A DNA stretch of 32,889 bases, from the NCBI GenBank assembly GCA_001789205.1, contig MFYT01000074.1, forward strand, positions 1-32,889. The letters are read 5' to 3'. Made by a program: the position numbers and the translations under genes. Source of the DNA: Candidatus Raymondbacteria bacterium RIFOXYA2_FULL_49_16. Its GTDB lineage: Bacteria; Fibrobacterota; OXYB2-FULL-49-7; XYB2-FULL-49-35. Under the pieces are notes generated by a model, which searched no databases, was not told the origin of the DNA, and was given only the letters and a program-made list of their open reading frames with translations. Position 1 is the first letter of the stretch. Each line of letters opens with the position of its first letter. Shown in pieces: positions 2,248 to 31,125 of this stretch.

Positions 2248-2460
2248 ATGCAATCAATAAAAAACCAGAATGAGCTTGTCAGAGAATATTGCAGGCTTTG
2301 TGCCCTTGATATGAAGAAAATGAACAAAGACGAGTTCATTCAGACACAGAAAAGAATTGAGGATCTCGGAAAGAAAATAGTTAATATTCCGAGCTATATT
2401 GTCTTACAAGGCGTTGGTTCCGATGAAACGGGGATTGAGATTAAAAGGGAGGGAAAATAA
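2248..2460 (+). CDS. Small cytoplasmic protein opening the run (70 aa)
   Basis: I do not recognise this protein. It is 70 residues, starts MQSIKNQNELVREYCRLCA, is charged and mostly helical in appearance, and ends in DETGIEIKREGK. It has no signal peptide, unlike almost every gene that follows. AGGAAG at 2235-2240 sits 7 bases before the ATG, which supports this start over the much longer upstream extension of the same frame; that extension is antisense to the PAS region of the activator. It is the first gene after the sigma-54 promoter, and its stop lies 2 bases before the next ATG, with that gene's ribosome-binding site inside its last codons. This suggests translational coupling. It could be a small regulator or chaperone for the run; that is a guess from position only. 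Confidence 0.65.
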   Translation: MQSIKNQNELVREYCRLCALDMKKMNKDEFIQTQKRIEDLGKKIVNIPSYIVLQGVGSDETGIEIKREGK

Positions 2461-2462
2461 CC

Positions 2463-4532
2463 ATGAAACGTTCATGCCGGCAGATCGTTCTTTTTTCGCT
2501 TTTTGTCTTAAGCGCTTTAGCAGCTGCGTATGATGTTCCCTTAATCACTGCTGACATGAAAGCTGTGATGCGTGACATATGGAAGCGCGGGGATGCCATG
2601 GGCCGCATTGAAGGGAAGATGGGCCAGTGGGGCAACAGCATCACGAATTCACAGGCATATCTGGGCAGCCTTGCGAGTGGGGGCTGTTCGGGTAATGCCA
2701 CCTGCGAGAGCTACCATGACATCCTTTTATGGATGAAGGCCAGCGAAACATCCCCTGGCAGCGGTATTGTCGGCGGCTACCATGCAACACCCCTCGACGA
2801 AAAGGGAGGCGGACATTGCTGTGAGTCAGGATGGAAAGTGACCGATGGGCTTTGGTGCATAGGGGGCGCCATACAACGCGATAATCCTTCATGGTCTTTA
2901 ACCGAATACGGAACCAATGATCTTACCAGGAGTTGGACAGCGGATGATTATGCTGCTTTCAAGCAACGGATGAAATACCTCCTTGTTGCCAGCATCGAAG
3001 CAGGCATCATCCCCGCTGCCGGCGCTATTCCGCCCCGGATGGAAAATTGCAGTCCAGCAAATAACGACAGTGTTATCGTCAAAAGGCTCAATGACAGCCT
3101 GAAAGCCGCTGCACAGGAACTGCATGTTCCCTATGTTGATTATTACCAGGCCTGTGTGGAACACCATCCCACGGACTGGTGTGGTGGAGCGGCGGGCACC
3201 ATCAGTGACGACGGCATACATCCTTCATGGCACAGTAATACAAATAATTTCGACCCTCCGGCCATCTACAATGACGGGTATGCCATACGTTCGAAACAGA
3301 CGCTTGATTATGCACGGAAACTGAAAACGATCGTGTTCGACAACGGCGCTCCCGACGGGCAGGACCTGCCCATTCTGGCCGTTTCGTCATCGACGCATCC
3401 ATGGGGCGAATATAATAACAGCGCAACCGCGTCCTTTTCCTGGGTGCATGACGGCGGGCCTGCGGCTACGGAATACAGCTACGTTTTTAACCAGACAGCA
3501 TCGACAATCCCTGATGAGACAAGCGAGGGAACAGGAACAACCGCGACAGTGAATGCGGGGTCAACGGGAGAGTGGTTTTTTCACGTGCGGGCGAACAGCG
3601 CAACAGGCTGGGGGCCTGCGGCCCATTATCCGGTCCGTATAATAGGAGAGAACCAGGCAGTGGTCCAGGATGGCATGAACGGGTATTCCGGAGCCACTGA
3701 CGCCATGATATTCGACCAGTATAATTACGGCGCCTCGGCCATCCAGCTCAAATACAACGGAGGGGAGAGCAGGGACAGGCTCTTAGTTAAATTTGACCTT
3801 TCATCGTTTGCCGGCGCAACAATCACAGACGCCCGGTTCGAACTGTTCATCGAAAAGACCGGCGGCGACGATTCCCTCAGCGCCCATGCCCTTACCAACA
3901 GCTGGCAGGAAGGAACCGGCGGATATGAGAAGAAGACAGGTGTTTCGTGGACATACCGGTATGCCAACGACTCCGCGGCCTGGACCACGCCCGGAGGCGA
4001 CTTTGCAAGCCAGGCCATTGACGGCAAAAAGATCAACGCAGCTGATGCCTTTACCTGGAAATCGTTCAATATGACGATAGCGGCACAGCAGTGGTGCAGC
4101 GATCCGTCCAATAACCATGGCCTTATCCTCATAGGCCATGGCTCTTATTCGTCCACGTATGTCTATTTCAGGGAATTCCCGCTTAAAACCCTTCGGCCGC
4201 GGCTTGTACTCACCGGTTCCGGGTTCTCACATACAGAGACTATATACGGGCCGAGAGGGTCGCGGCTTGGGGCCCCGTATCCCAACCCCGGTAATCCCGG
4301 GGTTTTTATTCCCGTGCACGTTGCCCCGCGCTCGCGTGTGACAGTGAAGATATATTCCATCAAAGGAACATTGGTATATCAAACAGCGCTTGTCAACGGA
4401 ACCGCCAGCCCGAACATCCAGACCGTTAGTTTTGGCGGGAACGGAAAAAGCATAGCTTCGGGCATATATCTGGCAAGGCTGCAGGGGGAAAAGTCAGTCA
4501 GCAGCGCGGGTAAGCTGATACTCATGCAATAG
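2463..4532 (+). CDS. Secreted SGNH/GDSL-type esterase with DNRLRE-like and C-terminal sorting domains
   Basis: This is an exported 689-residue multidomain hydrolase. A signal peptide covers residues 1-22 (ending LSALAAA). The SGNH core follows: block I GNSIT (Ser59), block III GTND (Asn152) and block V DGIH (Asp250, His253). Such enzymes typically remove acetyl or other acyl groups from carbohydrates, but the substrate is not shown here. Residues about 300-392 look like an Ig/FN3-type spacer. Residues about 396-590 look like a DNRLRE / disaggregatase-type beta-sandwich (KYNGGESRDRLLVKFDLSSF). Residues about 597-689 form the C-terminal sorting module (APYPNPGNPGVFIPV, then SGIYLARL). AGGGAGG at 2448-2454 supports the start. 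GNS replaces the classical GDS; the same variant occurs in the paralogue at 13376. Many Cys residues suggest disulfides outside the cytoplasm. Confidence 0.88.
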   Translation: MKRSCRQIVLFSLFVLSALAAAYDVPLITADMKAVMRDIWKRGDAMGRIEGKMGQWGNSITNSQAYLGSLASGGCSGNATCESYHDILLWMKASETSPGSGIVGGYHATPLDEKGGGHCCESGWKVTDGLWCIGGAIQRDNPSWSLTEYGTNDLTRSWTADDYAAFKQRMKYLLVASIEAGIIPAAGAIPPRMENCSPANNDSVIVKRLNDSLKAAAQELHVPYVDYYQACVEHHPTDWCGGAAGTISDDGIHPSWHSNTNNFDPPAIYNDGYAIRSKQTLDYARKLKTIVFDNGAPDGQDLPILAVSSSTHPWGEYNNSATASFSWVHDGGPAATEYSYVFNQTASTIPDETSEGTGTTATVNAGSTGEWFFHVRANSATGWGPAAHYPVRIIGENQAVVQDGMNGYSGATDAMIFDQYNYGASAIQLKYNGGESRDRLLVKFDLSSFAGATITDARFELFIEKTGGDDSLSAHALTNSWQEGTGGYEKKTGVSWTYRYANDSAAWTTPGGDFASQAIDGKKINAADAFTWKSFNMTIAAQQWCSDPSNNHGLILIGHGSYSSTYVYFREFPLKTLRPRLVLTGSGFSHTETIYGPRGSRLGAPYPNPGNPGVFIPVHVAPRSRVTVKIYSIKGTLVYQTALVNGTASPNIQTVSFGGNGKSIASGIYLARLQGEKSVSSAGKLILMQ
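4284..4310 (+). terminator. Terminator-like hairpin inside a coding region
   Basis: AACCCCGG (4284-4291) and CCGGGGTT (4297-4304) form a perfect 8-bp stem with a 5-base loop, followed directly by TTTATT. It lies in frame within the C-terminal sorting module of the preceding esterase. Translating ribosomes would normally hide it, so it could act only when translation lags. It may simply reflect the PNPGNPG codons. Confidence 0.3.
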
Positions 4533-4588
4533 GGTAAAACTTGGCCGCTGTTTTCTGTGGGCGCGGCCGAAAGAAAAGGGGGCGAACA

Positions 4589-6061
4589 ATGCAGGTACTA
4601 ATGTTTTGCGTCTTATTGGCAGTGATATCTCCTGCTTTTTCCCAGACAGAGCCAGCCGCACTGCTGTGGCCCCAGCAGATTGTTTATGAAGGCGCTTTCA
4701 AGTTCAGCACATCGGGCTTTGGATACGGCGGCGAGGCCTTTGGTTACTATCCAGCAGGAGACCCGTCGGGTCCGAATGACGGCTACCCCGGCTCCCTCTT
4801 CGGTTCGGGATATGGACAGGCGAATCAGATCGCTGAATTCGCCATTCCGACTCCTGTTATTTCTCCGACCAAAAGCATCGGCGCTATACCCCAGGCAGCA
4901 ACGCTGCAGTCATTTATCGATCCGTTTTCCAGCGTCCCCTATGTTCAGAACCTCGGCGTTGCCGGATTGCTGTATCTTCCGGCTAAAGGGAGCCAGACAT
5001 CCGGAAAATTATATGCTAACCTGAAGGATGAATACAACTCGCTTTCGGGCGGCACGCACATGGCGTGGCTGGATGTCACGTTAAACAATCCCAATACCGC
5101 CGGATTCTGGCGGGCAGACACATTCAACAATGTGGATATTGCACGATATCTGCTTGAGATACCCCAGACGTGGTCCGACAGTCATATCAGCGGAAAATCG
5201 ATTGGAACCGGTGACGGAAGCAACTATGGGGCGTCCGGTCCATGTCTGCTGGCCTGCGCACCCTGGCAGCACGGGAACCCGCCGACCTCACAAACGGTCA
5301 TGGACGCTGTTCCGCTGTTGTTTTATGATAAATACGACCATATCGGCAAAAAATTCACGGAAGTGGATTGGATGACCGGCGCTGCATGGGTGACATACGG
5401 CTCGCGGTCGGCGCTGGTCTTTTATGGCCCCATGATGTACAGCATGGACCGGTGCTATTTTTACGGCCATTACGGACCCGGAATCTATCCCTGTCTGACC
5501 TTATTTAACCCTGCGGATATTGAGCAAGTTACGGCTGGCACCCTGCAGCCATGGGCGCCGCGGTGGTATGCCCGGAAATGCCTTGACCCCTTCTTTTTCT
5601 CGAAAAAGATGCCGGGCGGCGGCTGCCGGTTTGCCGAGGACGGCGGATATGTATCGGGCGGTATGGCCTACGACCGCGAACACGGAAAATTATATGTGTC
5701 TCAGATGTATGGTAATGGAACAGATCCGATTATACATGTATTTCGTATTGATACAACTGTCAACGCATCGGAATCGGGCGTAAAAAAGAACAACCGTCGC
5801 ATGCCTTCGCTTGCGGTATTTCCAAATCCATTCAATCCAAGCACGCTTATTTCAGTCCCCAAAGAATATATCTCCGGTGAAAGCGGTCTTCAGAAGGAAC
5901 TGAAGGTTTTTAATGCACGTGGTGAACTGGTCGCTGATTTAAGCCGTGAACGCGGTCCCTCTATTGAATGGAATGCCTCACATATGTCGAGCGGCGTCTA
6001 TGTTATCCGTTTTAGTTGCGGGAGTACATCACTTTCAAAAGCGGTTATGCTTCTGAAATAA
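4589..6061 (+). CDS. Secreted protein of a four-copy unknown family (copy 1), with C-terminal sorting domain
   Basis: The function is unknown. It is the first of four homologues in this window (others at 17746, 20607 and 22128). The 490-residue protein has a signal peptide (MQVLMFCVLLAVISPAFSQ). Family landmarks include the opening LLWPQQIVYEGAFKF, GYYPAGDPSGPNDGYPGSLF, IPTPVIS, WSDSHISGKSIGTGDG, APWQHGNPP, FNPADIEQVTAGTLQPW and AYDREHGKLYVSQMYGNG. Recurrent strand-like segments with conserved Trp, Gly and Asp suggest a beta-propeller; this is inference. Residues about 404-490 are the sorting module (LAVFPNPFNPSTLISV, then SSGVYVIRF). The start at 4589 is preferred over an in-frame ATG at 4541 because AAAGGGGG at 4575-4582 and a proper signal peptide follow only from 4589. 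Confidence 0.85.
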   Translation: MQVLMFCVLLAVISPAFSQTEPAALLWPQQIVYEGAFKFSTSGFGYGGEAFGYYPAGDPSGPNDGYPGSLFGSGYGQANQIAEFAIPTPVISPTKSIGAIPQAATLQSFIDPFSSVPYVQNLGVAGLLYLPAKGSQTSGKLYANLKDEYNSLSGGTHMAWLDVTLNNPNTAGFWRADTFNNVDIARYLLEIPQTWSDSHISGKSIGTGDGSNYGASGPCLLACAPWQHGNPPTSQTVMDAVPLLFYDKYDHIGKKFTEVDWMTGAAWVTYGSRSALVFYGPMMYSMDRCYFYGHYGPGIYPCLTLFNPADIEQVTAGTLQPWAPRWYARKCLDPFFFSKKMPGGGCRFAEDGGYVSGGMAYDREHGKLYVSQMYGNGTDPIIHVFRIDTTVNASESGVKKNNRRMPSLAVFPNPFNPSTLISVPKEYISGESGLQKELKVFNARGELVADLSRERGPSIEWNASHMSSGVYVIRFSCGSTSLSKAVMLLK

Positions 6062-6077: not shown

Positions 6078-7244
6078 ATGAACACACCATTCTGCATTAT
6101 ACTATGTTTAGCTGCGGCGCTGCTGGCACAGGCTCCTAATGTTGAATTTCATAAATTGTTCAATTCGAGCAGCGTCCCGGCAAAAACCGGGGACCAGGCG
6201 GACATCTACGCCCACTATGTGGTAGAAACCGCGGACCACGGCTTTGCCCTGGCCGTGCGCTGCTGCTGTTCGCACTGCGGCAATGATTTCTCCCTGATCA
6301 AGACCGACTCCGCGGGCAACCTTGTCTGGTCCAATCGGTACGACGGTCCCAATGGCGACGACAATCCCAACTGCGTCCAGCAGACAAACGACGGCGGGTT
6401 CATTATTGCCGGGCAGACCAATGATCAGAACGCCCTGCAGGACGCTTTCGTTGTAAAGACAAATTCAGCGGGTGATCAGGTCTGGTCGAACACGTATGGA
6501 AACACCGGGGGGTATGTCTGGGAACAACCCTATCACATAATCCAGACAACGGATGGCGGCTTTTGTTTCGCCGGATATGTCTGGGACAGAAATAACAGCA
6601 CCGGTCTTGACGCATACGTTGTAAAACTGAACGCGCAGGGCAATGCGGTCTGGACGAAAACTTACGGCGGCGCCAGGGAGGACTGGCTGCGGTGCGTCCA
6701 GCAGACAGCGGATGGCGGGTATATCCTGTGCGGAACTACCGGCTCTGTTACCACGGGATTCGGCTACGATGTATGGCTGGTCAGGCTGAACGGCTCGGGT
6801 GATACGCTCTGGACGCGCCATTTCGGCGGAGAAGACGTCAATGACGGAGGCATGTTCTTGGAAATAACGCAGGACAACGGTTATATCATCACTGGATATG
6901 CGAACAACTACGAGGACATGTATCTGGTGCGAACTAATTCCGAAGGCGTACTGCAATGGGAGAAAACATACGGCGCAGACGACACAACCTCCGAATGCAG
7001 CCATGCGGTAAAAGAAATACCCGGCGAGGGCTACATCATGGGCGGATATACCGCGTATAACAAGCCTGAGCCGTGCATTGTCCGCACAGACCTGCAGGGT
7101 AACGTGCTGTGGCGCAAGACAGTCCCGAGCGGCACGTGGGATTATTTTTACAGCATTGCCCTGACCAGCGATGGAGGCATTGTCGCGACCGGAAGGCAGG
7201 ACCAGCGCACCTATGCGCAGCTGATAAAACTCGACGGAAGATGA
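6078..7244 (+). CDS. Secreted seven-bladed beta-propeller repeat protein
   Basis: This is a 388-residue exported protein with a signal peptide (MNTPFCIILCLAAALLAQA). The rest consists of seven repeats of about 45-55 residues, each with a core like QTxDGGFxxAGxT followed by DxxVVKxNxxGxxxWxxxYG. The cores are ETADHGFALA, QQTNDGGFIIAG, QTTDGGFCFAG, QQTADGGYILCG, EITQDNGYIITG, KEIPGEGYIMGG and ALTSDGGIVATG. Seven repeats fit a closed seven-bladed propeller. Such proteins usually act as binding or scaffold modules; no catalytic site is visible. Unlike its immediate neighbours it lacks the C-terminal sorting module and ends in a blade strand (TYAQLIKLDGR). CCC and SHCGN near residues 62-70 are an unusual Cys cluster. 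GGAGG at 6065-6069 precedes the ATG. Confidence 0.85.
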   Translation: MNTPFCIILCLAAALLAQAPNVEFHKLFNSSSVPAKTGDQADIYAHYVVETADHGFALAVRCCCSHCGNDFSLIKTDSAGNLVWSNRYDGPNGDDNPNCVQQTNDGGFIIAGQTNDQNALQDAFVVKTNSAGDQVWSNTYGNTGGYVWEQPYHIIQTTDGGFCFAGYVWDRNNSTGLDAYVVKLNAQGNAVWTKTYGGAREDWLRCVQQTADGGYILCGTTGSVTTGFGYDVWLVRLNGSGDTLWTRHFGGEDVNDGGMFLEITQDNGYIITGYANNYEDMYLVRTNSEGVLQWEKTYGADDTTSECSHAVKEIPGEGYIMGGYTAYNKPEPCIVRTDLQGNVLWRKTVPSGTWDYFYSIALTSDGGIVATGRQDQRTYAQLIKLDGR

Positions 7245-7284: not shown

Positions 7285-9462
7285 ATGAAGGCGTTTTTTT
7301 TATTAATGGTTTTTGCCTGCGTTGCGGCATTTGCCGCAGTGCCAACGGACATGGCCGGGTTATTCCGCTCAGGCCAGGTGTTCATCACCTGGTCTGAAGT
7401 AACAAGCGGTGAACTGTATGTCATTTACCGGACCACCGCACCAATGACGACGGGAGACCTTGTCCAGGCCAACAAACGATATGAAGTGATCCAGGGTTCT
7501 GCGGGAAATAAACATTTAAAAATGCTTACTCTTGCCCAGGACATTGGTTCGGGATGGCCCAGCATTACCCCGCCATGTTCTCTTTACCGCAATGTCATTA
7601 ATCCTCTCGATCCCGCAAACAGCGGCATGGCCCAGGAAGTGCCCTCAGGCACGGGAATGATAGTTTTCACAACGCATGAGGCTGGTTCGTACTATTATGC
7701 TGTAACGGCCGTGGTCGGCGGCGTGGAGGACAAGACCATTGGCGCTGGAAATGTCATCGGGCCTATTGCGGAGACCGTTGCAGATCCTATGCCTGTCCTG
7801 ATCTGGCAGGGAACGGCAAAGACCGCGCGCATTTACCTGCAGTATACGGACGTTGACTCCTGCAATCCCACACTGACCAACACCTATGCATGGCCGTATT
7901 GGGTGGGTGTAAAGGAAAATTACAATACCACGACCGACAGGCTCGATATGCAGGTACGGCTTGAGGGGTATCCGGGCGGCATGTCCTATTGCCGTAACAG
8001 CGCCGAGTGGAACCCGGACGGTATGGAGGTAAAGCCCCATGAATGCGGTTGCTGGTGGTACGGTTACAGCCAGACATGGCAATTCGACTCAAGCCGCGCA
8101 AACTATGGAAACAGCGAGTATGTTGGAACGCCCAATGTAGGCCCTGTTGGGAATTTTGTCCAGGCACGAATCATGAATTTTCTCAAATGGATGATATACG
8201 GGGAACAGTATTACGGGAGCAGGCTCGATAGCAACAGGATCTGGCTCTTTGGCGGTTCAATGGGCGGCGGCGGTACGCACCTGTTTCTGCAGAGCTATCC
8301 TCATTTCTTTGCCTATGGCACGTGTGACGTGGGACCCACCAATTATTTCGAGGCTGGTCCCTGGACCTGGCTCCAGGACTGTCAGAAGAAATGGGGCATG
8401 TACAATGACAACAACATGACCGTCACTTTTTCCGGCTGGGGCAGCGAATGGCTCAGGGACAATTTTACGGGACTGACCGTGCATGAATGGCTCAACATGG
8501 AGCACTTCATGGGCGCGAACAGGGCCATTGACCGGCCGTTTCTTGCAACGGCTCATGGCGTTGAGGACGGCAGCGTGACCTGGCCGCAGCAGGGCAGGGC
8601 ATATTACGATTCATTGAACTCGGCAAAACAGGGCTGGTGCGGCGGTCTCGATCCGGGCGGCCACGGCTGTTGCGCAACCCAAATGACCTCAAACCACAAT
8701 ATGCATGAAATCCGGAGGAACGAATCATATCCGGCATTCAGTAACGTGCATAAGAATCCTCCGCTGCCCATGCCTGCGGCAGGCCCCATATCCGCAAAGA
8801 TGCATTACAACAGGCACCTCATGTGGAGTACGCCCCACTTCAGGGTGGGTGGCTATCAAAACCAAGTGGATGAAACCAACCGGTACGAGATCGTACTTGC
8901 GTCGTACCGTGTCAGATACGACATGCCCCTTGTGGGCGATGATACCGCTGATGTGACGCCCCGCCGCCTTCAGAATTTTGTCGTTCTGCCCGGTGAAGAA
9001 TATATCATTCGAAATACGGCGGTGAGTGATACCAACACGGTGTATCAGAAAGACACGGTCACCTCAGACGCGGACGGTCTTGTGACCGCTGAGGATTTCA
9101 TCATCAAGGCAGGAGACCAGAGCACAGGCGGCTGCAGATTAATCCTGGTTCCGGTCAACCCTGTGTCCATTGCGGAGAAAAGCGTGACGGACGCAGGAAC
9201 GAGCATGGAATGCAGCCCCAATCCATTCAATCCCGAGACACGGATAACTGTGCGCGGAATTCAGGACACCAGAGGCTCTGCAGAGGCATTGATTAGAATG
9301 TATCACGTCGACGGGAAATGCGTTTACGCAGTAAGGGCCCTGCGCTCGCAGCTTGCGACCGGTTTGACATGGAATGCGTCGCACCTGCCAAGCGGTTTAT
9401 ATGTTGTCGTTGTTAGAACCGGAAACAGAGCAATGACAAAAAGAGTCACACTGTTGAGATAA
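7285..9462 (+). CDS. Secreted alpha/beta-hydrolase (esterase-like) with C-terminal sorting domain
   Basis: This is an exported 725-residue enzyme. A signal peptide ends near residue 18 (CVAAFAAV). Residues about 20-165 look like an FN3-type domain (GQVFITWSEVTSGELYVIYR). The hydrolase core carries the nucleophile elbow GGSMGG (Ser325), a candidate acid Asp428 in HGVEDGSV and a candidate His460 in GGHGCC. Their order and spacing match a Ser-Asp-His triad of the prolyl-oligopeptidase / feruloyl-esterase superfamily. Residues about 638-725 are the sorting module (MECSPNPFNPETRITV, then LPSGLYVVVV). Vicinal Cys pairs beside the candidate His may form a disulfide. The substrate is unknown; neighbouring SGNH esterases suggest a shared ester-bearing polymer. 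AAGGGGAAG at 7272-7280 supports the start. Confidence 0.85.
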   Translation: MKAFFLLMVFACVAAFAAVPTDMAGLFRSGQVFITWSEVTSGELYVIYRTTAPMTTGDLVQANKRYEVIQGSAGNKHLKMLTLAQDIGSGWPSITPPCSLYRNVINPLDPANSGMAQEVPSGTGMIVFTTHEAGSYYYAVTAVVGGVEDKTIGAGNVIGPIAETVADPMPVLIWQGTAKTARIYLQYTDVDSCNPTLTNTYAWPYWVGVKENYNTTTDRLDMQVRLEGYPGGMSYCRNSAEWNPDGMEVKPHECGCWWYGYSQTWQFDSSRANYGNSEYVGTPNVGPVGNFVQARIMNFLKWMIYGEQYYGSRLDSNRIWLFGGSMGGGGTHLFLQSYPHFFAYGTCDVGPTNYFEAGPWTWLQDCQKKWGMYNDNNMTVTFSGWGSEWLRDNFTGLTVHEWLNMEHFMGANRAIDRPFLATAHGVEDGSVTWPQQGRAYYDSLNSAKQGWCGGLDPGGHGCCATQMTSNHNMHEIRRNESYPAFSNVHKNPPLPMPAAGPISAKMHYNRHLMWSTPHFRVGGYQNQVDETNRYEIVLASYRVRYDMPLVGDDTADVTPRRLQNFVVLPGEEYIIRNTAVSDTNTVYQKDTVTSDADGLVTAEDFIIKAGDQSTGGCRLILVPVNPVSIAEKSVTDAGTSMECSPNPFNPETRITVRGIQDTRGSAEALIRMYHVDGKCVYAVRALRSQLATGLTWNASHLPSGLYVVVVRTGNRAMTKRVTLLR

Positions 9463-9481
9463 ATGGAGGTTGATTCAAGTC

Positions 9482-9535
9482 ATGGGAAATTATCTTGTAA
9501 AAATAGCGGCATTATCAATCATGATGCTGGCTTAA
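9482..9535 (+). pseudogene. Orphan signal-peptide remnant (17 codons)
   Basis: GGAGGT at 9464-9469 is followed by an ATG and 17 codons, MGNYLVKIAALSIMMLA, then TAA. The sequence looks like the n- and h-regions of a signal peptide with no mature protein. It sits just before a gene that also exists as a second copy at 24287. A plausible reading is the leftover start of a secreted gene lost by deletion or replacement. It could also be a short leader peptide. Confidence 0.4.
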
Positions 9536-9586
9536 GATGATTTTATCCAGATAGGGGACATAATAAGTTTTAAAAGAGGGGGGAGT

Positions 9587-10261
9587 ATGAAGCTTGCGAT
9601 TTTATTTATCCTGTTTGCCATGCTGTCTGCTGCAGCGGACAGTGTGGCTGTCTTTCCGCAGGGGCCGACAGAAGAGGATGTTTTGACCCTTACATTGACG
9701 GACGAATCAGCGCTCTGCTGCTGGACCCGCTGGACAGACTTTGATGCCTGTTCGATTGAAAACCGGTCCATTTTCCTTTCATTTTGTTGGGGCCTTCCAA
9801 GCGAATGCCCCACCAGCCCCGGCTGTGAAGGCTGGGGAAAAACAATAGAATATGATAATGTCGGCCCTCTTTCCAGCGGCGCATATCAGATATATTCAAT
9901 CGAATATCTCGCACGCATGCAGGGCCAGAATGTGGTTTTCACGATGGACACGAATCTGGTAGGAACGCTTATTGTCGGCAATGCCGGTGTAGCGGAAAAA
10001 CAGGCAAAACGGGGAGGCGGTGTAAATTTTGGGGTGTTTCCAAGCCCATTCCGGTCAAACACGACAATAGTTTTCCCTTGTTATTATCGCAATGCCGCGG
10101 TTGACATATTCAACGAAGGAGGCGCCTGCGTTGCCCGATACTCCGGCGTCCAGGGCCGGGCGTTTGATTTGAATGCGGCATACATGCCGAACGGCGTATA
10201 CATCGTTCGTGTCAGGGCGCAGGCAAAAACACATTGCACGCGGTTGATTGTGCAACGCTGA
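9587..10261 (+). CDS. Small secreted Cys-rich beta-sandwich protein with C-terminal sorting domain (copy A)
   Basis: This is a 224-residue exported protein with a signal peptide MKLAILFILFAMLSAAA. The mature N-terminal half (about 19-140) is a strand-rich domain beginning VAVFPQGPTEEDVLTLTLTD, with Cys clusters ALCCWTRWTDFDACS and SFCWG, then a GPLSSGAYQIYSIEYL strand. It resembles an Ig-like beta-sandwich; no enzyme motif is seen. Residues about 145-224 are the sorting module (FGVFPSPFRSNTTIVF, then PNGVYIVRVRA), so the sorting module is over a third of the protein. It is nearly identical to the protein at 24287; copies differ mainly around residues 60-80. AGGGGGG lies directly upstream. It may be a surface binding or structural subunit, judged only from size and lack of catalytic residues. 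Confidence 0.85.
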   Translation: MKLAILFILFAMLSAAADSVAVFPQGPTEEDVLTLTLTDESALCCWTRWTDFDACSIENRSIFLSFCWGLPSECPTSPGCEGWGKTIEYDNVGPLSSGAYQIYSIEYLARMQGQNVVFTMDTNLVGTLIVGNAGVAEKQAKRGGGVNFGVFPSPFRSNTTIVFPCYYRNAAVDIFNEGGACVARYSGVQGRAFDLNAAYMPNGVYIVRVRAQAKTHCTRLIVQR

Positions 10262-10350
10262 AAAGGCATGGATTGAATGAAAGTGAGACAGATGAAATGA
10301 ACGTTTTCCCATTTTCGACATTATCGGCAGGCATGTCGGGCACTGTGCGT

Positions 10351-23631: not shown

Positions 23632-24285
23632 ATGAAACAGATGGCCATACGATTCCCAATACTGCTGACAATAGCAATTCCCTTATTATGCGCTGCCGCT
23701 CCCTGGGATTGCGTCCCTGCCGACAATGAAATCGCCGGTTGGACCAAGGGCGGTTCATGTTCAACCGTACCGCAGATACCGGATACTGCGTCATTGTACC
23801 GCGCCATTGACGGCGCCGCGCCTGTATATACTGCCTGCGGTTTCACCTGCGCATCGTATCAGGGCTATATCAATGGAGCAATTGAAATGTGCGTGGAAAT
23901 TTACGACCAGGGGGTTACGGAGAACGCAAAAGACCTCTGGATTAGAACTGCGTCCGGAGAACAGATACCCATTGACACAATCGGCGACAGCGCACGGGTA
24001 TTTGTCGGCCTGTTCGGATATTTTTATGAATGCATAGAAGAGCAGTGTTACATTAAAGTAAGCGTTATGAGCGATGATCCTGAAGCCGTTGCCGCCGGAA
24101 GCCGGATGGCGCGGTGTATTGCTGAAAAAGTTGTTACGGTATCGGTTGAAAAACCATTCAATAGTTTGCAGTCAAACGGAGAAACGAATAACAAGGGCCG
24201 GATTGGAGGATGCGGAAACGGGATCGCTTTTGCTTTTACGGTTCCGCTTGTTGTACGTCTGCTTAACGGAAAAAAAAGGAGGTAG
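23632..24285 (+). CDS. Secreted DUF6599-like protein with a Cys-TM-basic C-terminal tag
   Basis: This is a 217-residue exported protein with signal peptide ending near LLCAAAP. The body resembles DUF6599: GWTKGGSCSTVP, LYRAIDGAAPVYTACGF and IEMCVEIYDQGVTENAKDLW match the family pattern of a GW start, a YxxINGGA-like segment and a VEIYDMG strand. The C-terminus differs from all neighbours: GRIGGCGNG, then a hydrophobic stretch IAFAFTVPLVV, then RLLNGKKRR. This Gly/Cys motif, TM helix and basic end is the layout of Cys-containing CTERM sorting tags (MYXO-CTERM or Synerg-CTERM type). The start at 23632 follows AAAGGA; an earlier frame start at 23587 overlaps the preceding gene. Its stop is one base before the next ATG, suggesting translational coupling. 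Confidence 0.78.
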   Translation: MKQMAIRFPILLTIAIPLLCAAAPWDCVPADNEIAGWTKGGSCSTVPQIPDTASLYRAIDGAAPVYTACGFTCASYQGYINGAIEMCVEIYDQGVTENAKDLWIRTASGEQIPIDTIGDSARVFVGLFGYFYECIEEQCYIKVSVMSDDPEAVAAGSRMARCIAEKVVTVSVEKPFNSLQSNGETNNKGRIGGCGNGIAFAFTVPLVVRLLNGKKRR

Positions 24286-24286
24286 T

Positions 24287-24952
24287 ATGAAGTTCGCAAT
24301 CGTTTTTATCCTGCTTGCCGTGATGTCTGTTGCAGCGGACAGTGTGGCTGTCTTTCCGCAGGGTCCGACAGAAGAGGACGTGTTGACTCTTACATTGACG
24401 GATGAATCAGCGCTCTGCTGCTGGACCCGCTGGACAGACTTTGATGGATGTTCAATTGAGAACCGGTCCATTTTCCTTTCGTATTGCTGGGGACTTGCGG
24501 CTGAATGCACTGAATGTGAGGGCCAGGGAAAGACAATCGAGTATGATTCTGTCGGGCCGCTTTCCAGCGGCACATATCAGATATATTCCATCGAATATCT
24601 CGCAAGCATGCAGGGTCAGAATGTGGTTTTCACGATGGACACGAATCTGGCAGGAACACTTATTGTCGGCAATGCCGGTATAGCGGAAAAACAGACACAA
24701 CGAGGAGGCGGTGTAAATCTTGGAGTGTTTCCAAGCCCATTCCGGTCAAACACGACAATAGTTTTCCCTTGTTTTTATCGCAATGCCGCAGTTGATATAT
24801 TCAACGAAGGAGGCGCCTGCGTTGCCCGGTACTCCGGCGTCCAGGGCCAGGCGTTTAATTGGAATGCAGCATCCATGCCGAACGGCGTATACATCGTTCG
24901 TGTCAGGGCGCAGGCAAAAACACATTGCACGCGGTTGATTGTGCAACGCTGA
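24287..24952 (+). CDS. Small secreted Cys-rich beta-sandwich protein with C-terminal sorting domain (copy B)
   Basis: This 221-residue protein is a near-identical second copy of the gene at 9587. The signal peptide is MKFAIVFILLAVMSVAA. The mature domain starts VAVFPQGPTEEDVLTLTLTD and keeps ALCCWTRWTDFDGCS. It differs most at residues about 62-75, where copy A has a PTSPGC insert and this copy reads AECTECEG, shifting Cys positions. Residues about 141-221 are the sorting module (LGVFPSPFRSNTTIVF, then PNGVYIVRVRA). AAGGAGGT precedes the ATG. Ranges before 24287 in the same frame are antisense or overlapping noise. Two copies of one small protein fit a multi-subunit surface structure; this is inference. 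Confidence 0.85.
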   Translation: MKFAIVFILLAVMSVAADSVAVFPQGPTEEDVLTLTLTDESALCCWTRWTDFDGCSIENRSIFLSYCWGLAAECTECEGQGKTIEYDSVGPLSSGTYQIYSIEYLASMQGQNVVFTMDTNLAGTLIVGNAGIAEKQTQRGGGVNLGVFPSPFRSNTTIVFPCFYRNAAVDIFNEGGACVARYSGVQGQAFNWNAASMPNGVYIVRVRAQAKTHCTRLIVQR

Positions 24953-25041
24953 AAAGGTATGGATTGAATGTAAGTGAGACAGATGAAATGAACGTTTTCT
25001 CATTTTCGACATTATCGGCAGGCATGTCGGGCACTGTGCGT

Positions 25042-25059
25042 CCGGTTGGGTACAACCGG
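25042..25059 (+). other. Conserved hairpin in duplicated 3' flank (copy B)
   Basis: This is identical to 10351-10368: CCGGTTG, GGTA loop, CAACCGG. It lies in the 169-base gap between the genes ending at 24952 and starting at 25122; the rest of that gap holds no convincing gene. Confidence 0.45.
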
Positions 25060-25121
25060 AATAGTATCCAGAAGAAACTTGTATTTTGCAAATAATCAAA
25101 GATCTTCAACGGAGGACCTTC

Positions 25122-26198
25122 ATGAGATCGTTTGTCGCCACGCTTCTTATATCGGCAGCAGTCTCGCTGCTTGCTGTTGCCGTCTATCACGGCCTCATTT
25201 CCCGTTCCGAATACCAGCCGTACCATCACCGCAATGTCGCGTATCTTGATACGGCTGACAATGGCTTCTCCAAAGGGTGGCAGGGCCACGAACGCGCCCA
25301 GCCCAGGGTATGGTTCGACATGCACATGCATATGACTGACGCCTGTTCAACCGTGGGGCTGATACAAGAAGGGGTCGGATACTGGAAAAAGGCCATGGGA
25401 GACCTGGGCGGGCTGTGCGGCGGAGTAATCCTCGACGGGACTCTGGATACGGCTCGTCCCTTATACGAGTACTGCCGTACCGATACGTCCATGCATCCTT
25501 TTCTCTGGCTCAAATTCAGCAAAGACCCGCCTGCCCCTGCGCAGCTGGAATACCTTGTGAAGACCAGAGGTGTTGAGGGCGTAAAACTCCATAATGGATT
25601 TATCTACGATGATGCCCTCGATTACCGGCTCATGGATTCCGAAGCATGGAACGCCATATACGCCACATGCGGAAAGCTGGGCATTCCCATTCTGTGGCAT
25701 TTGAACCACCGTTTTTGCGATCCTGAAATAGTATACTGGGACTGCAATTATGAGAAGATATGGAAAGGGCTGCCCTATACCAACCGGGACGTACTGGCCT
25801 TGTTCGAAAAAATAGCGGACAAGCATAAAGATGTACAGTTTATCCTGGCCCATATGAATTTTATGGGCTATGATTCGCTTGGAACTCTCTTTGACCGCCA
25901 TCCGAACGTATGCGCCGACGGTTCAAGCCCCCTGAAGATTAGCACTGCCCATCGACTGACGCCAAGGGAGATCCAGGAGTTACGGCCCTTTTTTATAAAG
26001 TATCAGGACCGTATCTTTTTCGGCACAGACAATTCGATACGGCTGCCTCCTCAGCGGAATGAGGCTGTTGAGGTGTTGAATATGTTGTATTTATACACGG
26101 ATTACCAATATTTTCTCCTGCAGCTCGAGCTGCCTCACAGGGTGATCGACAAGATAGCGTATCGGAACGCGGAGAAGGCGCTTCGCGCCAAATTTTGA
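25122..26198 (+). CDS. Membrane-anchored amidohydrolase (amidohydrolase-2 type TIM barrel)
   Basis: This is a 358-residue predicted metal-dependent hydrolase or decarboxylase. An N-terminal hydrophobic segment (FVATLLISAAVSLLAVAVY) should anchor or export it. The metal-site pattern follows the PF04909-type order: DMHMH (Asp66, His68, His70), a His in ILWHLNHRF (about 190), a His in ILAHMNFMG (about 243) and an Asp in FFGTDNSIR (about 301). The end, IAYRNAEKALRAKF, is the typical family terminus (YxNAxRLL). It lacks the C-terminal sorting module of upstream genes. The start at 25122 follows GGAGG at 25111-25115; an upstream in-frame start at 25086 is rejected. It begins the distal enzyme block; the substrate is unknown. 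Confidence 0.86.
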   Translation: MRSFVATLLISAAVSLLAVAVYHGLISRSEYQPYHHRNVAYLDTADNGFSKGWQGHERAQPRVWFDMHMHMTDACSTVGLIQEGVGYWKKAMGDLGGLCGGVILDGTLDTARPLYEYCRTDTSMHPFLWLKFSKDPPAPAQLEYLVKTRGVEGVKLHNGFIYDDALDYRLMDSEAWNAIYATCGKLGIPILWHLNHRFCDPEIVYWDCNYEKIWKGLPYTNRDVLALFEKIADKHKDVQFILAHMNFMGYDSLGTLFDRHPNVCADGSSPLKISTAHRLTPREIQELRPFFIKYQDRIFFGTDNSIRLPPQRNEAVEVLNMLYLYTDYQYFLLQLELPHRVIDKIAYRNAEKALRAKF

Positions 26199-26210: not shown

Positions 26211-26777
26211 ATGAAAATTATTGGCGTGAACGGAAGTCCGCATGCGAACCATAATACAGGGTTCCTTGTTAAAAAAGTGCTTGAAGGGGCGGGAAAGGCC
26301 GGAGCAGAGACAATGCTGTTCCATCCCGAGCGCATGAAACTGCGGTCATGCAAAGCGTGCATGGCGTGCAAGAAGCGGCCGCTTGCCTGCAGCATCAAGG
26401 ACGACATGGCCGGATTCGTGGGGGCGGTTGAAGAAGGATGCGGCTTGGTCATTGGCACGCCGGTGTACTTTGACCATGTCAGCGCGCAGCTCAAGATGTT
26501 TCTCGACCGTATGTACTGCTTTCTCGGTCCTGATCTAAAGAACCATTTTCCGAAAAAAGCGCGTGCGGTGCTTGTCATGACCTACGAAGCTGATAACCCA
26601 AAATCGTACGAAAGCGTGCTGACGTGGATCGAAGAGCGGCTGAAAGGATATTACGGTATCGAAACCATCGGCAGCATCAAACTCCATGGCAGCCCATGCA
26701 GGTTAACGTCCAACAAGGACGCCGCGATATGCGAGAAAGCCTATGCTTTGGGGCTCAAGCTTGCAAAAAATAAATGA
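26211..26777 (+). CDS. Flavodoxin-fold NAD(P)H-dependent FMN reductase / iron-sulfur flavoprotein-like
   Basis: This is a 188-residue cytoplasmic protein. IIGVNGSPHANHNTGFLV is the FMN phosphate-binding loop of the NADPH-dependent FMN reductase family. SCKACMACKKRPLACSIKDD (residues about 45-64) carries closely spaced Cys residues as in iron-sulfur flavoproteins. GTPVYFDHVSAQLKMFLDRM is the family GTPVYxxxxxxxxKxFxDR motif. It probably transfers electrons through FMN. It has no signal peptide, which is rare in this run. AAAGGA lies before the ATG. Its stop overlaps the start of the GH38-like gene by four bases, so the two are likely translated together. Confidence 0.9.
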   Translation: MKIIGVNGSPHANHNTGFLVKKVLEGAGKAGAETMLFHPERMKLRSCKACMACKKRPLACSIKDDMAGFVGAVEEGCGLVIGTPVYFDHVSAQLKMFLDRMYCFLGPDLKNHFPKKARAVLVMTYEADNPKSYESVLTWIEERLKGYYGIETIGSIKLHGSPCRLTSNKDAAICEKAYALGLKLAKNK

Positions 26778-29443
26778 ACACGCAGCAATACAACGGGCAA
26801 ATAATACGGAGTTCAGGAAGCATGGCCGGCCTGTCTGTCGCATGCATGCTTGTTCTTTTCACCTCAATTGACGCCCGCGCCGCCACTCCGGCGACTGATT
26901 CGGCCTGCAGGAAAATGGCCATTATTGTCCCATCAACGCACATGGACATAGATTTCACCGGGCTTGTTACGGATTGCTATGCGTTATATGATACCTTTAT
27001 TGTCCAGGCCATCCATTTGGCAGAAAAAGACCCCCGCATCGCCTATACTATCGAACACACATCGGCGATCAAGCATTTTCTGCAAACACATCCGCAGTTG
27101 CGTAAACGTCTTATGGAAAAATTAAAGGCCGGTCAACTGGAAATCGGGTGCAGCTGGACCAGTCCTCATTACGCGGACCTTGGCCAGGAGCTCATGCTTC
27201 GCGAGTTTGCCTATGCCAAACATTTTCTGCGGACCGAACTCGGATACGAATCGATCATCGCGAAAAACGGCGAGCTTTCAGACCCGGTACCGCAGATGGC
27301 GCAGGTCATGTCCAAATGCGGGATCGCATTGTTTCAGTCGTGTAAGGTAGACCAAAACCCCCTGCTTACAACGACATTCGCATATGTAGGCCTCGATGGT
27401 TCAGAAGTGCTTTTCCATCCATACAATTACACGTTTAGGGGCCGCTTGAGCGGTATATATAACAATGACCGGGACATACTGCGCTTTATGCTCATGGACC
27501 GTCGTATGGATCTTTCGGTCCAGTACGTCGACGGCGGGGGAGACGATGCAATGCCCGACATACCCGCACTTATCGCCGCTTGCAGTTCATGGGATTCGAG
27601 CGGAGATTCGAAAAGCATTGGGTGCTCTATTATTACGTCGACCATGACACGGTTCGTAAAAGAATATACCGCGAGGGTTGCTGCAGGCCGCATCGATCCT
27701 CCGCAGCGTGGCACAGGGTTTACCCAGCATGGCGAACAACTCTATTACCAGTGGGGATGGACCAAATATTACGACAGGGCCATTGCCGAACAGGCCTTGT
27801 TGCGCGCGGAAAAACTTTCGGCAGTTCTCGATATTACCGGCATTCGTCCGTATCCTTCAAAAACACTTGACAGTTGCTGGGAAAACCTGATGCAGGTAAG
27901 CACCCATAACTGGGGATACCAGAAAAGGAAGGGCGACACATTGCTGCCTCCGCTTGCCGCATGGGCGCGCGAACAGGGCGAACGCATCAGCATTGCAGCG
28001 CTCAAGGACATGACGCGCAGTGTTAAGACCGGAAATAAGGGTATTCCGGTGATTGTTGTTAATCTTTCCAATGGAACTCGCATAGACGTTGCTACGGCAG
28101 AAGTGGAAATGCCCGAATCCATGGTTCCCGCCATTATTGGCAGTTCCGGGCGTCTTGTCCCCTGTCAGGAAATAACGGCAGTACGGGGATCGCGCAGGGG
28201 ATGTAAAATATCCAAACTCGTTTTTGTGGCATCGAAAATGCCATCATTCGGATGGAAAACGTACTATGTGACTGACAGCGCCAGGGCAGGCAGGCCTTCT
28301 ATGGAGGATACCGTGCAGTGGAATCCGGACAGCACTTTTGAAAATGCGTATTATAAGGTTAAATGCGACAATAAGGGCATCAGAAGTATTTTTGATAAAG
28401 CAAACAGGCGTGAAATGGTCGGGCAAAACGGCATACGCGTATGGGAACACGGATACGGCATTCTGGGAATACCAACGTTTAAAGCGGAATATATGGACAG
28501 AAAAACCGGTTCGGCGCCCCTGGCATTCACCTCTGCAAGGCTGGAAAAAGGGCCTGTGCGCGCGGGCGTGTCACTTGTCGGACGCGCTGTAGAGCTGAAT
28601 GTCCATGTGTATGCAGGCGTGCCTCGGATCGATATCCAGGTCGTTCCCATTACGCCTTTTCCAAACATATTATACGCGCTCCACGCAGACGTGAATTGTG
28701 ACGATCATTCGTGTTCCATGCGCGTGGGCATGCAATACGGGTCGGTCGAATACCCGCATGAGCCTGTCTGGCGCGGGACCGCAACTGCAGAGGGTTGGTC
28801 AAAGGCAGTGCAGGGACTGTGTGCCTGGACAGGTCTTTATAATGAAAAATGGCACGCGCCGCTCGAAGACTGCGTGTCCGCAAAAGCAGCGTGCGCTTCG
28901 TGGATCGACGTGCATGACAACGCATCGTATGGGATCACGATCTCCGGGGAACGGCCATCGAATTTATGGATATGCGACAAGGAAGACAGGAGCATTATTA
29001 AGAAATCGCTGTTTCTCGGCGACAGCGGTCTTATGCCAGAATGCTTCTCGATACGCGGCCATGCCGGAACCTGGAAACAGTCGAATGCCCCGCTTTTCGG
29101 GGAACAGACAATGAACCCGCTTCTTGCCGTACAAGCAAAATCAGGCAAGGGACTTTTGCCCGAAGAGGCAAGCTGCCTCACTATCGAACCGTCGGGGTCC
29201 ATTGCATTAACGGCGTTTAAAAAGGCCTGGAACAGGGAAGGCTATATTGTCCGGTTTTATGAAACAATCGATTCCATAACAAAGGCCTCGATTACGGTCC
29301 AGATACCCGGAGTCCGGTGTGACATTTTCACCTCAGGTCCTGCTGAGGACGGAGGCGCGATGCTGCAGCAAATTGCAGGGCAAACGGCAGTCAAGGACAT
29401 CAGGGGTTTTGGCATAGAGACAATACGTTTAAAGAAACGCTGA
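26774..29443 (+). CDS. Secreted GH38 alpha-mannosidase-like glycoside hydrolase
   Basis: This is an 889-residue protein. A hydrophobic segment (LSVACMLVLFTSIDARAA) follows a 17-residue n-region; ATG at 26822 would give a more compact signal peptide but has poor spacing. The catalytic half matches GH38: metal-site HMD (His56, Asp58) in PSTHMDIDFTG, Asp170 in ELSDPVPQMAQ as candidate nucleophile, and His378 in VSTHNWG as candidate metal ligand. The helical segment after HPQLRKRLMEKLKAGQLEIG is also typical. The C-terminal half begins with the GH38 signature ENAYYKVKCDNKGIRSIFDK. Family members release alpha-mannose. The motif SDPV replaces the commoner DPFG, so activity should not be assumed. 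It has no sorting module. It overlaps the preceding FMN reductase by four bases. Confidence 0.87.
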   Translation: MNTQQYNGQIIRSSGSMAGLSVACMLVLFTSIDARAATPATDSACRKMAIIVPSTHMDIDFTGLVTDCYALYDTFIVQAIHLAEKDPRIAYTIEHTSAIKHFLQTHPQLRKRLMEKLKAGQLEIGCSWTSPHYADLGQELMLREFAYAKHFLRTELGYESIIAKNGELSDPVPQMAQVMSKCGIALFQSCKVDQNPLLTTTFAYVGLDGSEVLFHPYNYTFRGRLSGIYNNDRDILRFMLMDRRMDLSVQYVDGGGDDAMPDIPALIAACSSWDSSGDSKSIGCSIITSTMTRFVKEYTARVAAGRIDPPQRGTGFTQHGEQLYYQWGWTKYYDRAIAEQALLRAEKLSAVLDITGIRPYPSKTLDSCWENLMQVSTHNWGYQKRKGDTLLPPLAAWAREQGERISIAALKDMTRSVKTGNKGIPVIVVNLSNGTRIDVATAEVEMPESMVPAIIGSSGRLVPCQEITAVRGSRRGCKISKLVFVASKMPSFGWKTYYVTDSARAGRPSMEDTVQWNPDSTFENAYYKVKCDNKGIRSIFDKANRREMVGQNGIRVWEHGYGILGIPTFKAEYMDRKTGSAPLAFTSARLEKGPVRAGVSLVGRAVELNVHVYAGVPRIDIQVVPITPFPNILYALHADVNCDDHSCSMRVGMQYGSVEYPHEPVWRGTATAEGWSKAVQGLCAWTGLYNEKWHAPLEDCVSAKAACASWIDVHDNASYGITISGERPSNLWICDKEDRSIIKKSLFLGDSGLMPECFSIRGHAGTWKQSNAPLFGEQTMNPLLAVQAKSGKGLLPEEASCLTIEPSGSIALTAFKKAWNREGYIVRFYETIDSITKASITVQIPGVRCDIFTSGPAEDGGAMLQQIAGQTAVKDIRGFGIETIRLKKR

Positions 29444-29456: not shown

Positions 29457-30176
29457 ATGCAATTAAAACAGGCCCTCGAATATTCCGCTTTTCCCTTTCT
29501 TTTGTGTTTTTCACTTGTCCTCGGACAGGGCGGCGACACCATTCGCGTGTATAAAACAAATAAACCGCCTGTCATTGACGGTACCCTTGCGGACTGGGAC
29601 AGGGCGTATTGTATTGGCGGATTTACCGGCGAAAAAAACCATGCGCTTACCAAGGGTTCGTGGAAGGGTTTTGCCAAAGATTACCAGTGTGAAACCTACG
29701 CATGCCATGACGACTCATTCATGTATATCGGCTGGAAAACCCTTGTCGACGACGAGTCCATTGTGGGCCGCGGCTGGGAGAAGGTCTGCGGGGACAATAT
29801 TAAACTGTGCCTTGGGGGCTGGAGCGACGTCATTTACCTTTGGAACGACACGGTTGTGCCTGGCCGCAACCCTGAGTATATGAACTTCAATTATCATTTA
29901 AAAGTGGGTATTACCAGGGGAAAGCTGCCGGTATATGAGATACGGATTCCCAAGCAGGAGATACGCTTATATTACGACGGCAGTCCTCCGTATGCCTTCA
30001 TGAATATTATGACAGAAGACTACGACAATAAGTGCTCAGAATATGACTTCTGGGGAATAGGTTTTACCTTGCCAGATTCACTGGATAAACGCGACGACAA
30101 CTGGAATCAGTGGGAAAATCCTTGGTATTTCCCCGTATTCCTGTTTTATAATACAATACCTGTCCAAAGAAAATAA
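29457..30176 (+). CDS. Secreted CBM9-like carbohydrate-binding protein
   Basis: This is a 239-residue exported protein; the signal peptide ends near FSLVLGQG. The mature start KPPVIDGTLADWDRA is the characteristic opening of CBM9-like domains. Later, SFMYIGWKTLVDD and VCGDNIKLCLGGW match the family's exposed aromatic strand and GDxIxLxLD-type segment, and YEIRIPKQEI matches its EIxIP strand. The entire mature protein is this single domain, so it probably binds glycan at the cell surface or in the periplasm rather than acting as an enzyme. It sits next to the GH38-like gene, which suggests a shared sugar target. The ribosome-binding site is weak (CAGGAT). Confidence 0.85.
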   Translation: MQLKQALEYSAFPFLLCFSLVLGQGGDTIRVYKTNKPPVIDGTLADWDRAYCIGGFTGEKNHALTKGSWKGFAKDYQCETYACHDDSFMYIGWKTLVDDESIVGRGWEKVCGDNIKLCLGGWSDVIYLWNDTVVPGRNPEYMNFNYHLKVGITRGKLPVYEIRIPKQEIRLYYDGSPPYAFMNIMTEDYDNKCSEYDFWGIGFTLPDSLDKRDDNWNQWENPWYFPVFLFYNTIPVQRK

Positions 30177-30201: not shown

Positions 30202-30816
30202 ATGCAACATAAAGGCATGTTCCTGTTTGCTGTATGCGCTGCCGTGCTGTTTGCCGCGGCCGCAGTTTCAGGCGCTGGTCCAAAGAAGACGGTGATTGTA
30301 ATCTATTCGGCCGGGATCGAGAGTGAAAAGAGCATGTCCGAAGAGGACAGTACAATAGACGGCAAAACCAATGCCACGCCGAAGAAGGCCATGAATGCAA
30401 AAATGGCCGCATATCACTTGGCAAAGGCGTTTGGCACGCTAGGGCTTGCGGTTTCCGTAAAGGAAGCGCTTGATATAAAAGACCCCGGGGAGATAATGAA
30501 TAAGGACTGCTTTGTCATCATCAGCCCTACAAGGTTCAACAACATGTCATGGGAGATAAAAAAGCTGTCAGATCAGGTTTTCCATGCAATTTACAAGAAA
30601 AAAGGGAAGTTGAACGGAAAACCGGCAAGTATCATCGCGACATCCGAAATCGTCAGTTCAGCGAAGGATTGTATCGGCAGGATTGGGAATGTCATAGGTC
30701 AGTGCGACGGTAAAGTGGAACAAACGCTTATTCTGTTAAATGAGACCGCTTTCTCAGAGGCGGAAAAGCAGGTATCAGACTTTGCCGCGGCATTCACTGC
30801 TTCGTTGCGCAACTAA
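30202..30816 (+). CDS. Exported flavodoxin-like protein
   Basis: This is a 204-residue protein with signal peptide MQHKGMFLFAVCAAVLFAAAAVSG. The mature part has a flavodoxin-fold order: strand TVIVIYSAG, helix AAYHLAKAFGTLGL, strand CFVIISPTRFNNMSWEIKKL (equivalent to the PTxxxxMSxxxK region of flavodoxins) and strand KPASIIATSEIV. The phosphate-binding loop after the first strand is replaced by an acidic segment (SEKSMSEEDSTIDG), so FMN binding is doubtful. Flavodoxins are usually cytoplasmic; an exported one is odd. The start at 30202 is preferred over an in-frame TTG at 30187 because AAAGGA lies between them. Confidence 0.72.
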   Translation: MQHKGMFLFAVCAAVLFAAAAVSGAGPKKTVIVIYSAGIESEKSMSEEDSTIDGKTNATPKKAMNAKMAAYHLAKAFGTLGLAVSVKEALDIKDPGEIMNKDCFVIISPTRFNNMSWEIKKLSDQVFHAIYKKKGKLNGKPASIIATSEIVSSAKDCIGRIGNVIGQCDGKVEQTLILLNETAFSEAEKQVSDFAAAFTASLRN

Positions 30817-30827
30817 GGGGAAGTGTT

Positions 30828-30878
30828 ATGTCAACTAAAAAATGGACCGAAGGCCTTTCGAAAACCTATTTAAAGTGA
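30828..30878 (+). CDS. Possible micro-ORF or gene remnant (16 aa)
   Basis: MSTKKWTEGLSKTYLK follows AAGGGGAAG with reasonable spacing and ends at TGA eight bases before the next ATG. It has no signal peptide. It may be a leader, the decayed start of a lost gene, or chance. Confidence 0.25.
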   Translation: MSTKKWTEGLSKTYLK

Positions 30879-30885
30879 GGAACGC

Positions 30886-31125
30886 ATGAATAAAACCTTT
30901 CCGATTTTTTTGCTTGTGTCGTGTGCCGCGTTTTCATCCGCGTATATTGCTTTTGACGGCAAACAGGTGCCTGCCCTGCCTTTGAGCGGTAATGTGGTGA
31001 ATGTCACGACTCCGGTCATGCTCTATCAGGCCCTGCGCAACCAGGCCGCAGGACAAACCATTGTTATAGCGAATGGCACGTACGATGTTTCCCCATGGGA
31101 ACCTATCCACTTGAGAGTGATATGA
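30886..31125 (+). pseudogene. Truncated secreted parallel beta-helix / chondroitinase-B-like gene
   Basis: 79 residues remain: signal peptide MNKTFPIFLLVSCAAFSSA, then VVNVTTPVMLYQALRNQAAG and QTIVIANGTYDVSPWEPIHL. This is the typical first coil of chondroitinase-B-like or other right-handed beta-helix proteins (a segment like LxxALxxAxPGDTIxLxxGTY), which normally run for 350 or more residues. The frame ends at TGA just where the second coil should begin, and no continuation is found in the other frames before the next gene. GTGAGGAACG before the ATG acts as ribosome-binding site. The break probably came from deletion or from insertion of the downstream ATPase segment. It ends the co-directional run. 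Confidence 0.72.

Follow-up and report, generated by a model that had tools for sequence, protein, structure and literature searches.

The contig C74 of Candidatus Raymondbacteria bacterium RIFOXYA2_FULL_49_16 (32,889 bases, 51% G+C; genome of 5.43 Mb in 112 contigs), referred to as the window, carries a ~29-kb run of 22 plus-strand genes at 2248-31125, as determined by gene calling. This run is probably a sensor-controlled cargo island of the type IX secretion system (T9SS): a σ54-dependent activator encoded next to it would act on a promoter box in front of the run and thus direct the formation of glycan-active enzymes at the cell surface. Such an island would resemble a polysaccharide utilisation locus (PUL), but it consists of other parts. 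The neighbouring regulator with its sugar-binding-like sensor appears to switch on the run, and this apparent control by a neighbouring σ54 activator, not the T9SS cargo, is the novelty of the run. In the following, C denotes contigs and L fetched loci; G000 is the genome with the window and G001 a second genome of the same order.

Thirteen of the 22 genes end in a T9SS C-terminal sorting domain (CTD), detected with a profile trained on the CTDs of the window itself. Nearly all of them are backed by the Pfam and NCBIfam models PF18962 and TIGR04183 (22128 is without PF18962 match, 10541 has a sub-threshold match only). In a crude hydrophobicity test, 12 of the 13 CTD proteins were positive for an export signal. 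The intergenic gaps are below 70 bp in 18 of 21 cases, the remaining three measuring 124, 279 and 169 bp, and strong ribosome-binding sites are frequent within the run. Hence, a preliminary description of this DNA was confirmed as to the co-directional run with short gaps, the ribosome-binding sites, the export of the encoded proteins and the PNPFN...PSGxYxV...KR module on 13 of them, which is indeed the T9SS sorting domain. It had also stated the lack of SusC/SusD and secretion-machinery genes. Among the proteins of the window no Pfam match to SusC/SusD was found, and no secretion-machinery gene is present there; the T9SS translocon protein SprA is encoded elsewhere in the genome (C61:36074-41077). 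The window contains no exosortase domain, and the C-terminal tails are T9SS CTDs, not PEP-CTERM.

Activator, promoter box and their recurrence

The divergent activator possesses the domain PF00158 (Sigma54_activat, 5e-69) and, like every activator of its sensor family, a σ54 loop of the GAFTGA type. Its C-terminus is cut by the contig edge. Positions 1-86 of the window overlap contig C84 (L036 5808-5893) exactly over 86 bp, and C84 supplies the missing C-terminal part, which is similar to a helix-turn-helix (HTH). For rpoN one PF04552 match was obtained in the genome (C23:33942-34415).

An AlphaFold model of the sensor region (pLDDT 81) contains a beta-sandwich (~224-393) in addition to two PAS-like parts. 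In the model, the beta-sandwich separates the helices of the second PAS-like part (PAS2) from the last strands of that part, and this order of strands suggests an insertion within PAS2. With Foldseek the sandwich matched CBM66 (E 5e-6, TMt 0.61, ~11% identity) as well as other concanavalin-like folds, and the other parts of the sensor matched PAS proteins. The likeness to CBM66, described for B. subtilis, is a fold match; here the predicted sandwich belongs to a cytoplasmic PAS regulator.

The box TGGCttaccatTTGCg at 2199-2214 has the form TGGC-N7-TTGC, with the -24 GG and the -12 GC at N10 spacing. The σ54 matrix used for scoring was written from general knowledge and not trained on these sites. 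In the window, the box is the only plus-strand match ≥8 that lies in a gap. Internal σ54 promoters were rejected as candidates, as the other plus-strand matches ≥8 are all within coding DNA. A scan for internal sigma70-like promoters and terminators of the run was noisy (37 sites against 22 expected; 19 terminators against 20 expected) and was not used. A search for enhancer sites to which the activator could bind revealed inverted repeats in several intergenic regions, but no motif is shared by them.

Eight σ54 activators with this sensor are encoded in the genome and all of them face CTD cargo. Seven face the CTD gene directly or behind a leader gene only; in the case on C17 two genes lie between. 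Within the 100 nt that precede the first cargo-side gene a score ≥8 was found at 7/8 activator loci versus 5/129 other upstream regions (p=4e-8, partly post hoc as explained below), and a score ≥6 at 8/8 versus 7/129. The weakest of the eight boxes is GAGCATGCTTTTTGCA at L025. Combined over the eight loci, shuffles gave p 4e-9 (partly post hoc likewise), with p 0.003-0.08 for single sites. Thus, the case for the window box is based on position and recurrence, not on its score.

Two tests were run after the rule had been set. One of them was G001, which belongs to another family of the order and encodes at least 16 proteins with the sensor; seven were examined (loci L149-L156). Six of these activators face CTD genes, and a box in cargo direction is present in all six intergenic regions. 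Five of the boxes are ≤100 nt from the called start, and the box of L153a lies ~300 nt upstream with a small open reading frame (ORF) just behind it. The first profile detected the sensor in five of the six activators, and in L153b (7856-10180) the sensor was found by a later search. The seventh activator, L150, has a divergent neighbour that is not a CTD gene, and no box was found there.

The other test concerned the leader gene, the first gene of the run. Five clear homologues of it exist in the genome, each as the first gene behind a σ54-type box (weak in L025). Counting the one in the window, the sixth leader (L022 14179) was found by protein search alone and has AGGCGCCAGATTTGCT 31 nt upstream. 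No box was found for a seventh, weak match on C19. Among 40 relatives, no convincing leader homologue was detected. At L021 (5827-6086 and 8380-8570) a 595-aa gene and a leader gene are each preceded by a σ54-type box, and the sequences upstream of the two boxes are nearly identical.

Furthermore, in ten proteins of the genome the same sensor is combined with another output, AraC or SpoIIE-type. Pfam assigned six of them (three SpoIIE, three AraC), and the remaining four were classed as AraC types by visual inspection. A listed CTD is located within 8 kb of 15/18 sensor proteins, compared with 4/19 of the other σ54 activators (p 2e-4). The cargo genes tested near AraC- or SpoIIE-type regulators scored <6 within 200 nt. 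Phosphatases of the SpoIIE type with this sensor occur near T9SS cargo at L141 6214-8373, L143 106-1842 and L144 1863-4025, which points to partner switching as a possible route to a further sigma factor. The comparison covered two genomes of the order (G000, G001). Elsewhere in the phylum the sensor matches are weak, with one to three per genome and ORFs mostly >900 aa. The assignment of the phylum to Fibrobacterota is based on the fibro-slime family, which was found in 11 of 16 genomes searched and is not present in this genome.

Proposed function and alternative explanations

According to the proposed mechanism, the cytoplasmic activator would bind a ligand, most likely a saccharide or a breakdown product of it, through its PAS/beta-sandwich sensor. 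The AAA+ ring would then remodel σ54-RNA polymerase at the 2199-2214 box, and the polymerase would transcribe the leader together with the following genes, which probably form a single long operon. The 13 CTD products are expected to cross the inner membrane by Sec, or probably by Tat in the case of the DUF362 protein, and to pass the T9SS, after which they may be released or fixed to the surface by their CTDs. There, the esterases, the mannosidase-like protein, the hydrolase, the beta-helix and the propellers could act on an acylated and perhaps mannose-containing glycan by binding and trimming it. Glycan degradation, adhesion and a surface structure had all been named in the preliminary description. 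With two SGNH esterases, a GH38 protein, an alpha/beta hydrolase and a beta-helix, glycan degradation fits the catalytic parts better than a purely structural assembly.

Several points weigh against this reading. The beta-sandwich fold is also known in proteins without sugar binding, and the presumed glycan substrate is a guess based on the SGNH and GH38 enzyme families. Regulation and transcription of the run are proposed from sequence alone. The window box is modest by score (shuffle p 0.012), with higher-scoring matches in coding DNA, and promoters inside the run might be located in the three larger gaps (124, 279 and 169 bp). For G000, the boxes were already known when the 100-nt zone and part of the first-gene starts were fixed, which makes the p-values partly post hoc; the control upstream regions came from fetched stretches, many of them chosen around CTD clusters. 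In addition, the four other σ54 activators that also have a CTD gene within 8 kb reflect a CTD-dense genome.

The boxes could in principle be a coincidence in AT-rich upstream DNA, with the activators adjoining by chance. The p-values of single sites and the choice of the G000 zone after inspection speak for this. The combined values (4e-9 against shuffles, 4e-8 against real upstream regions) speak against it, as do G001 and the sixth leader, both of which agreed once the pattern was defined, and the absence of a box upstream of those cargo genes near AraC/SpoIIE regulators that were tested. We consider coincidence very improbable. Alternatively, the run may simply have accumulated T9SS cargo genes through duplication and lateral transfer, with several promoters and an activator that controls the first genes only or something else. 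In favour of such an ordinary accretion are the four copies of the family U4 and the 808-bp duplicate inside the run, the three gaps >100 bp and the many CTD runs of the genome. U4, present in only 2/168 genomes of the phylum, is known from many other phyla as well, which also suggests lateral entry. However, a divergent activator and box at 8/8 loci and again in another family speak against accretion; moreover, no second σ54 box ≥8 lies in a gap inside the run, where 18/21 gaps are <70 bp. This explanation appears rather unlikely.

Unlikely, too, is a run that builds a surface structure or adhesin array from propellers, Ig-like and transglutaminase-like parts and whose σ54 switch is triggered by contact with a surface or by the state of the cell. 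The transglutaminase-like protein would suit such a structure, and so would the propeller proteins, of which there are five (four U4 and the delta-60 protein). A general link of σ54 to the bacterial exterior (PMC3162934) and one to floc proteins of the PEP-CTERM type (PMC9850573) have been described. On the other hand, the two SGNH esterases, GH38, the alpha/beta hydrolase and CBM96/DNRLRE are catalytic or glycan-binding, and the beta-sandwich of the sensor matches glycan-binding folds.

Beyond the run, the cytoplasmic PAS/beta-sandwich regulators may have radiated at the level of the order as private switches of T9SS cargo islands, with σ54 AAA+, AraC HTH and SpoIIE-type phosphatase as three interchangeable outputs. 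We hold this wider reading tentatively, at slightly less than an even chance. If it is true, cytoplasmic sensing of saccharides selects the set of exported surface enzymes, a PUL-like logic without SusC/SusD or membrane hybrid sensors. With its three swapped outputs, the sensor would provide some 18 natural experiments within a single genome from which ligands could be found.

PULs of Bacteroidota are regulated by a membrane hybrid two-component system, SusR or an ECF/anti-sigma pair. The run shares with them a local regulator beside co-directional exported glycan-active genes. It differs in the lack of SusC/SusD and in its regulator, a cytoplasmic σ54 activator (at other loci of the AraC or SpoIIE type). 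With T9SS type A cargo (PF18962/TIGR04183) it has 13 domain-bearing proteins and SprA in the genome in common, and the domain itself is ordinary. From T9SS cargo in general it is set apart by the clustering of 13 CTDs in one run together with a dedicated σ54 regulator. Dependence of a PEP-CTERM gene on RpoN and the two-component pair PrsK-PrsR was described formerly (PMC9850573). In both cases genes with a C-terminal sorting tag are linked to σ54 promoters; in contrast to PEP-CTERM/exosortase, the sorting system here is another one, and many one-component PAS/beta-sandwich activators each lie beside their own cargo. In Porphyromonas gingivalis, control of the T9SS runs through PorXY and the ECF factor SigP (PMC4800418, PMC8265659). 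This is likewise T9SS-related transcriptional control, but there machinery genes are addressed via an ECF sigma factor and here cargo islands would be addressed via σ54.

In the open-access literature searched, with most subscription journals outside that search, no report linking σ54 activators to T9SS cargo was found. The T9SS would be the second protein-sorting system, after PEP-CTERM, with cargo apparently under σ54 control. Little is known about the switching of T9SS cargo genes outside a few Bacteroidota. For this lineage, the layout of activator, box, leader and cargo provides a testable rule by which cargo can be assigned to a signal from sequence alone.

Gene content and origin of the cargo

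The features of the run are compiled in Table 1. For the alpha/beta hydrolase no close relative was found in the PDB. If the Tat signal and the T9SS CTD of the DUF362 protein are both functional, a protein exported by Tat would enter the T9SS route.

Table 1 Features of the activator-run region (gene starts according to our own gene calls)
Feature	Position	Strand	Basis
σ54-dependent activator, divergent: PAS1, PAS2 with lectin-like beta-sandwich (predicted), AAA+ (GAFTGA)	3..2117	-	Sigma54_activat 5e-69, AlphaFold, Foldseek
σ54 -24/-12 promoter box TGGCTTACCATTTGCG, 33 nt ahead of first gene	2199..2214	+	shuffle p 0.012 alone; paralogous loci
Leader protein, 70 aa, first gene of the run	2248..2460	+	six copies in genome
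SGNH/GDSL esterase + DNRLRE (CBM96-like) + CTD	2463..4532	+	PF13472, NF033679, TIGR04183
U4 copy 1: beta-propeller + CTD	4601..6061	+	model pLDDT 84, Foldseek propellers; no Pfam propeller model
Delta-60 repeat propeller, signal peptide, without CTD	6078..7244	+	TIGR02608, NF047494, both below cut-off
Alpha/beta hydrolase (PHB-depolymerase/S9-like, weak) + CTD	7306..9462	+	paralogues 43-53% identity at several loci
224-aa protein + CTD, duplicate 1	9587..10261	+	profile; 808-bp repeat
Parallel beta-helix-like protein + CTD	10541..12169	+	sequence inspection; no Pfam domain except weak tail
Exported protein, 372 aa, + CTD	12224..13342	+	paralogues on C64
SGNH/GDSL esterase + CTD; CBM96-like stretch weak	13376..15391	+	Pfam
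Transglutaminase-like protein + CTD	15405..17711	+	PF01841 weak, PF18962
U4 copy 2 + CTD	17746..19206	+	homology, CTD profile
DUF362 protein, Tat-type signal peptide, + CTD	19238..20575	+	PF04015, TIGR01409
U4 copy 3 + CTD	20607..22103	+	homology, CTD profile
U4 copy 4 + CTD	22128..23612	+	homology, CTD profile
DUF6599 protein, signal peptide	23632..24285	+	PF20244 at its cut-off
221-aa protein + CTD, duplicate 2	24287..24952	+	profile; 808-bp repeat
Amidohydrolase 2 family, exported, without CTD	25122..26198	+	PF04909
NADPH-dependent FMN reductase	26211..26777	+	PF03358
GH38 alpha-mannosidase-like, exported	26822..29443	+	PF01074 4.9e-14; PDB Ams1 family 2e-8
Exported protein; homologous to CTD genes on C23 and C67 adjoining other σ54 loci	29457..30176	+	
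Flavodoxin-like protein, exported	30202..30816	+	
79-aa truncated start of ~512-aa CTD protein family; end of the run	30886..31125	+	blastp to L022 9274-10812 and others

The CTD density of the run (4.0 genes per 10 kb) is above chance locally. As its distinctive feature, density was rejected, since the genome contains many such CTD runs. Values of 4.2-4.5 CTD genes per 10 kb were obtained for further stretches that had been fetched around CTD genes, and at least 150 CTD matches were counted genome-wide (431 candidates at first look, 150 scored). Two of the 13 CTD genes are copies of one 808-bp duplication with 90% DNA identity (9572-10378 and 24272-25068), which covers the CTD gene and the downstream spacer.

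U4 was assigned as beta-propeller by fold alone; for its propeller part no relative by sequence was found in the PDB and no model in Pfam. In Foldseek, the structural model matched beta-propellers, and its tail matched the CTD of RgpB. At least 13 full-length copies are present in the genome. In the phylum, U4 was found in one further genome, and at least 80 U4 loci were fetched from other phyla, archaeal genomes included (L041-L120). From this distribution, lateral entry followed by expansion is likely. A set of hydrolase, U4 and delta-60 propeller, in varying order, occurs at seven other loci of the genome, the hydrolase partner being weakly similar at C40 (L029) and more distant at C84 (L036). 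The latter contig, which completes the activator, thus itself carries another U4-propeller-hydrolase set.

The preliminary description had matched the run to no known locus type and had named a lack of conserved gene neighbourhood in relatives as a refutation. A unique locus type is not supported, and judged by that criterion the particular set of genes is not kept in relatives. The run is one of many T9SS cargo runs, and an old conserved system was rejected as explanation given the phylum distribution of U4 and its loci in other phyla, which share scattered homologues at most. The regulatory architecture, not the gene content, is conserved; activator and promoter were absent from that description.

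Beyond the truncated gene at 30886-31125 a G+C-rich repeat-like stretch follows (~31220-31300), and then an AAA_14/DUF4143 gene at 31413. Judged by this arrangement, the segment 30886-31413 looks like an insertion or rearrangement point.

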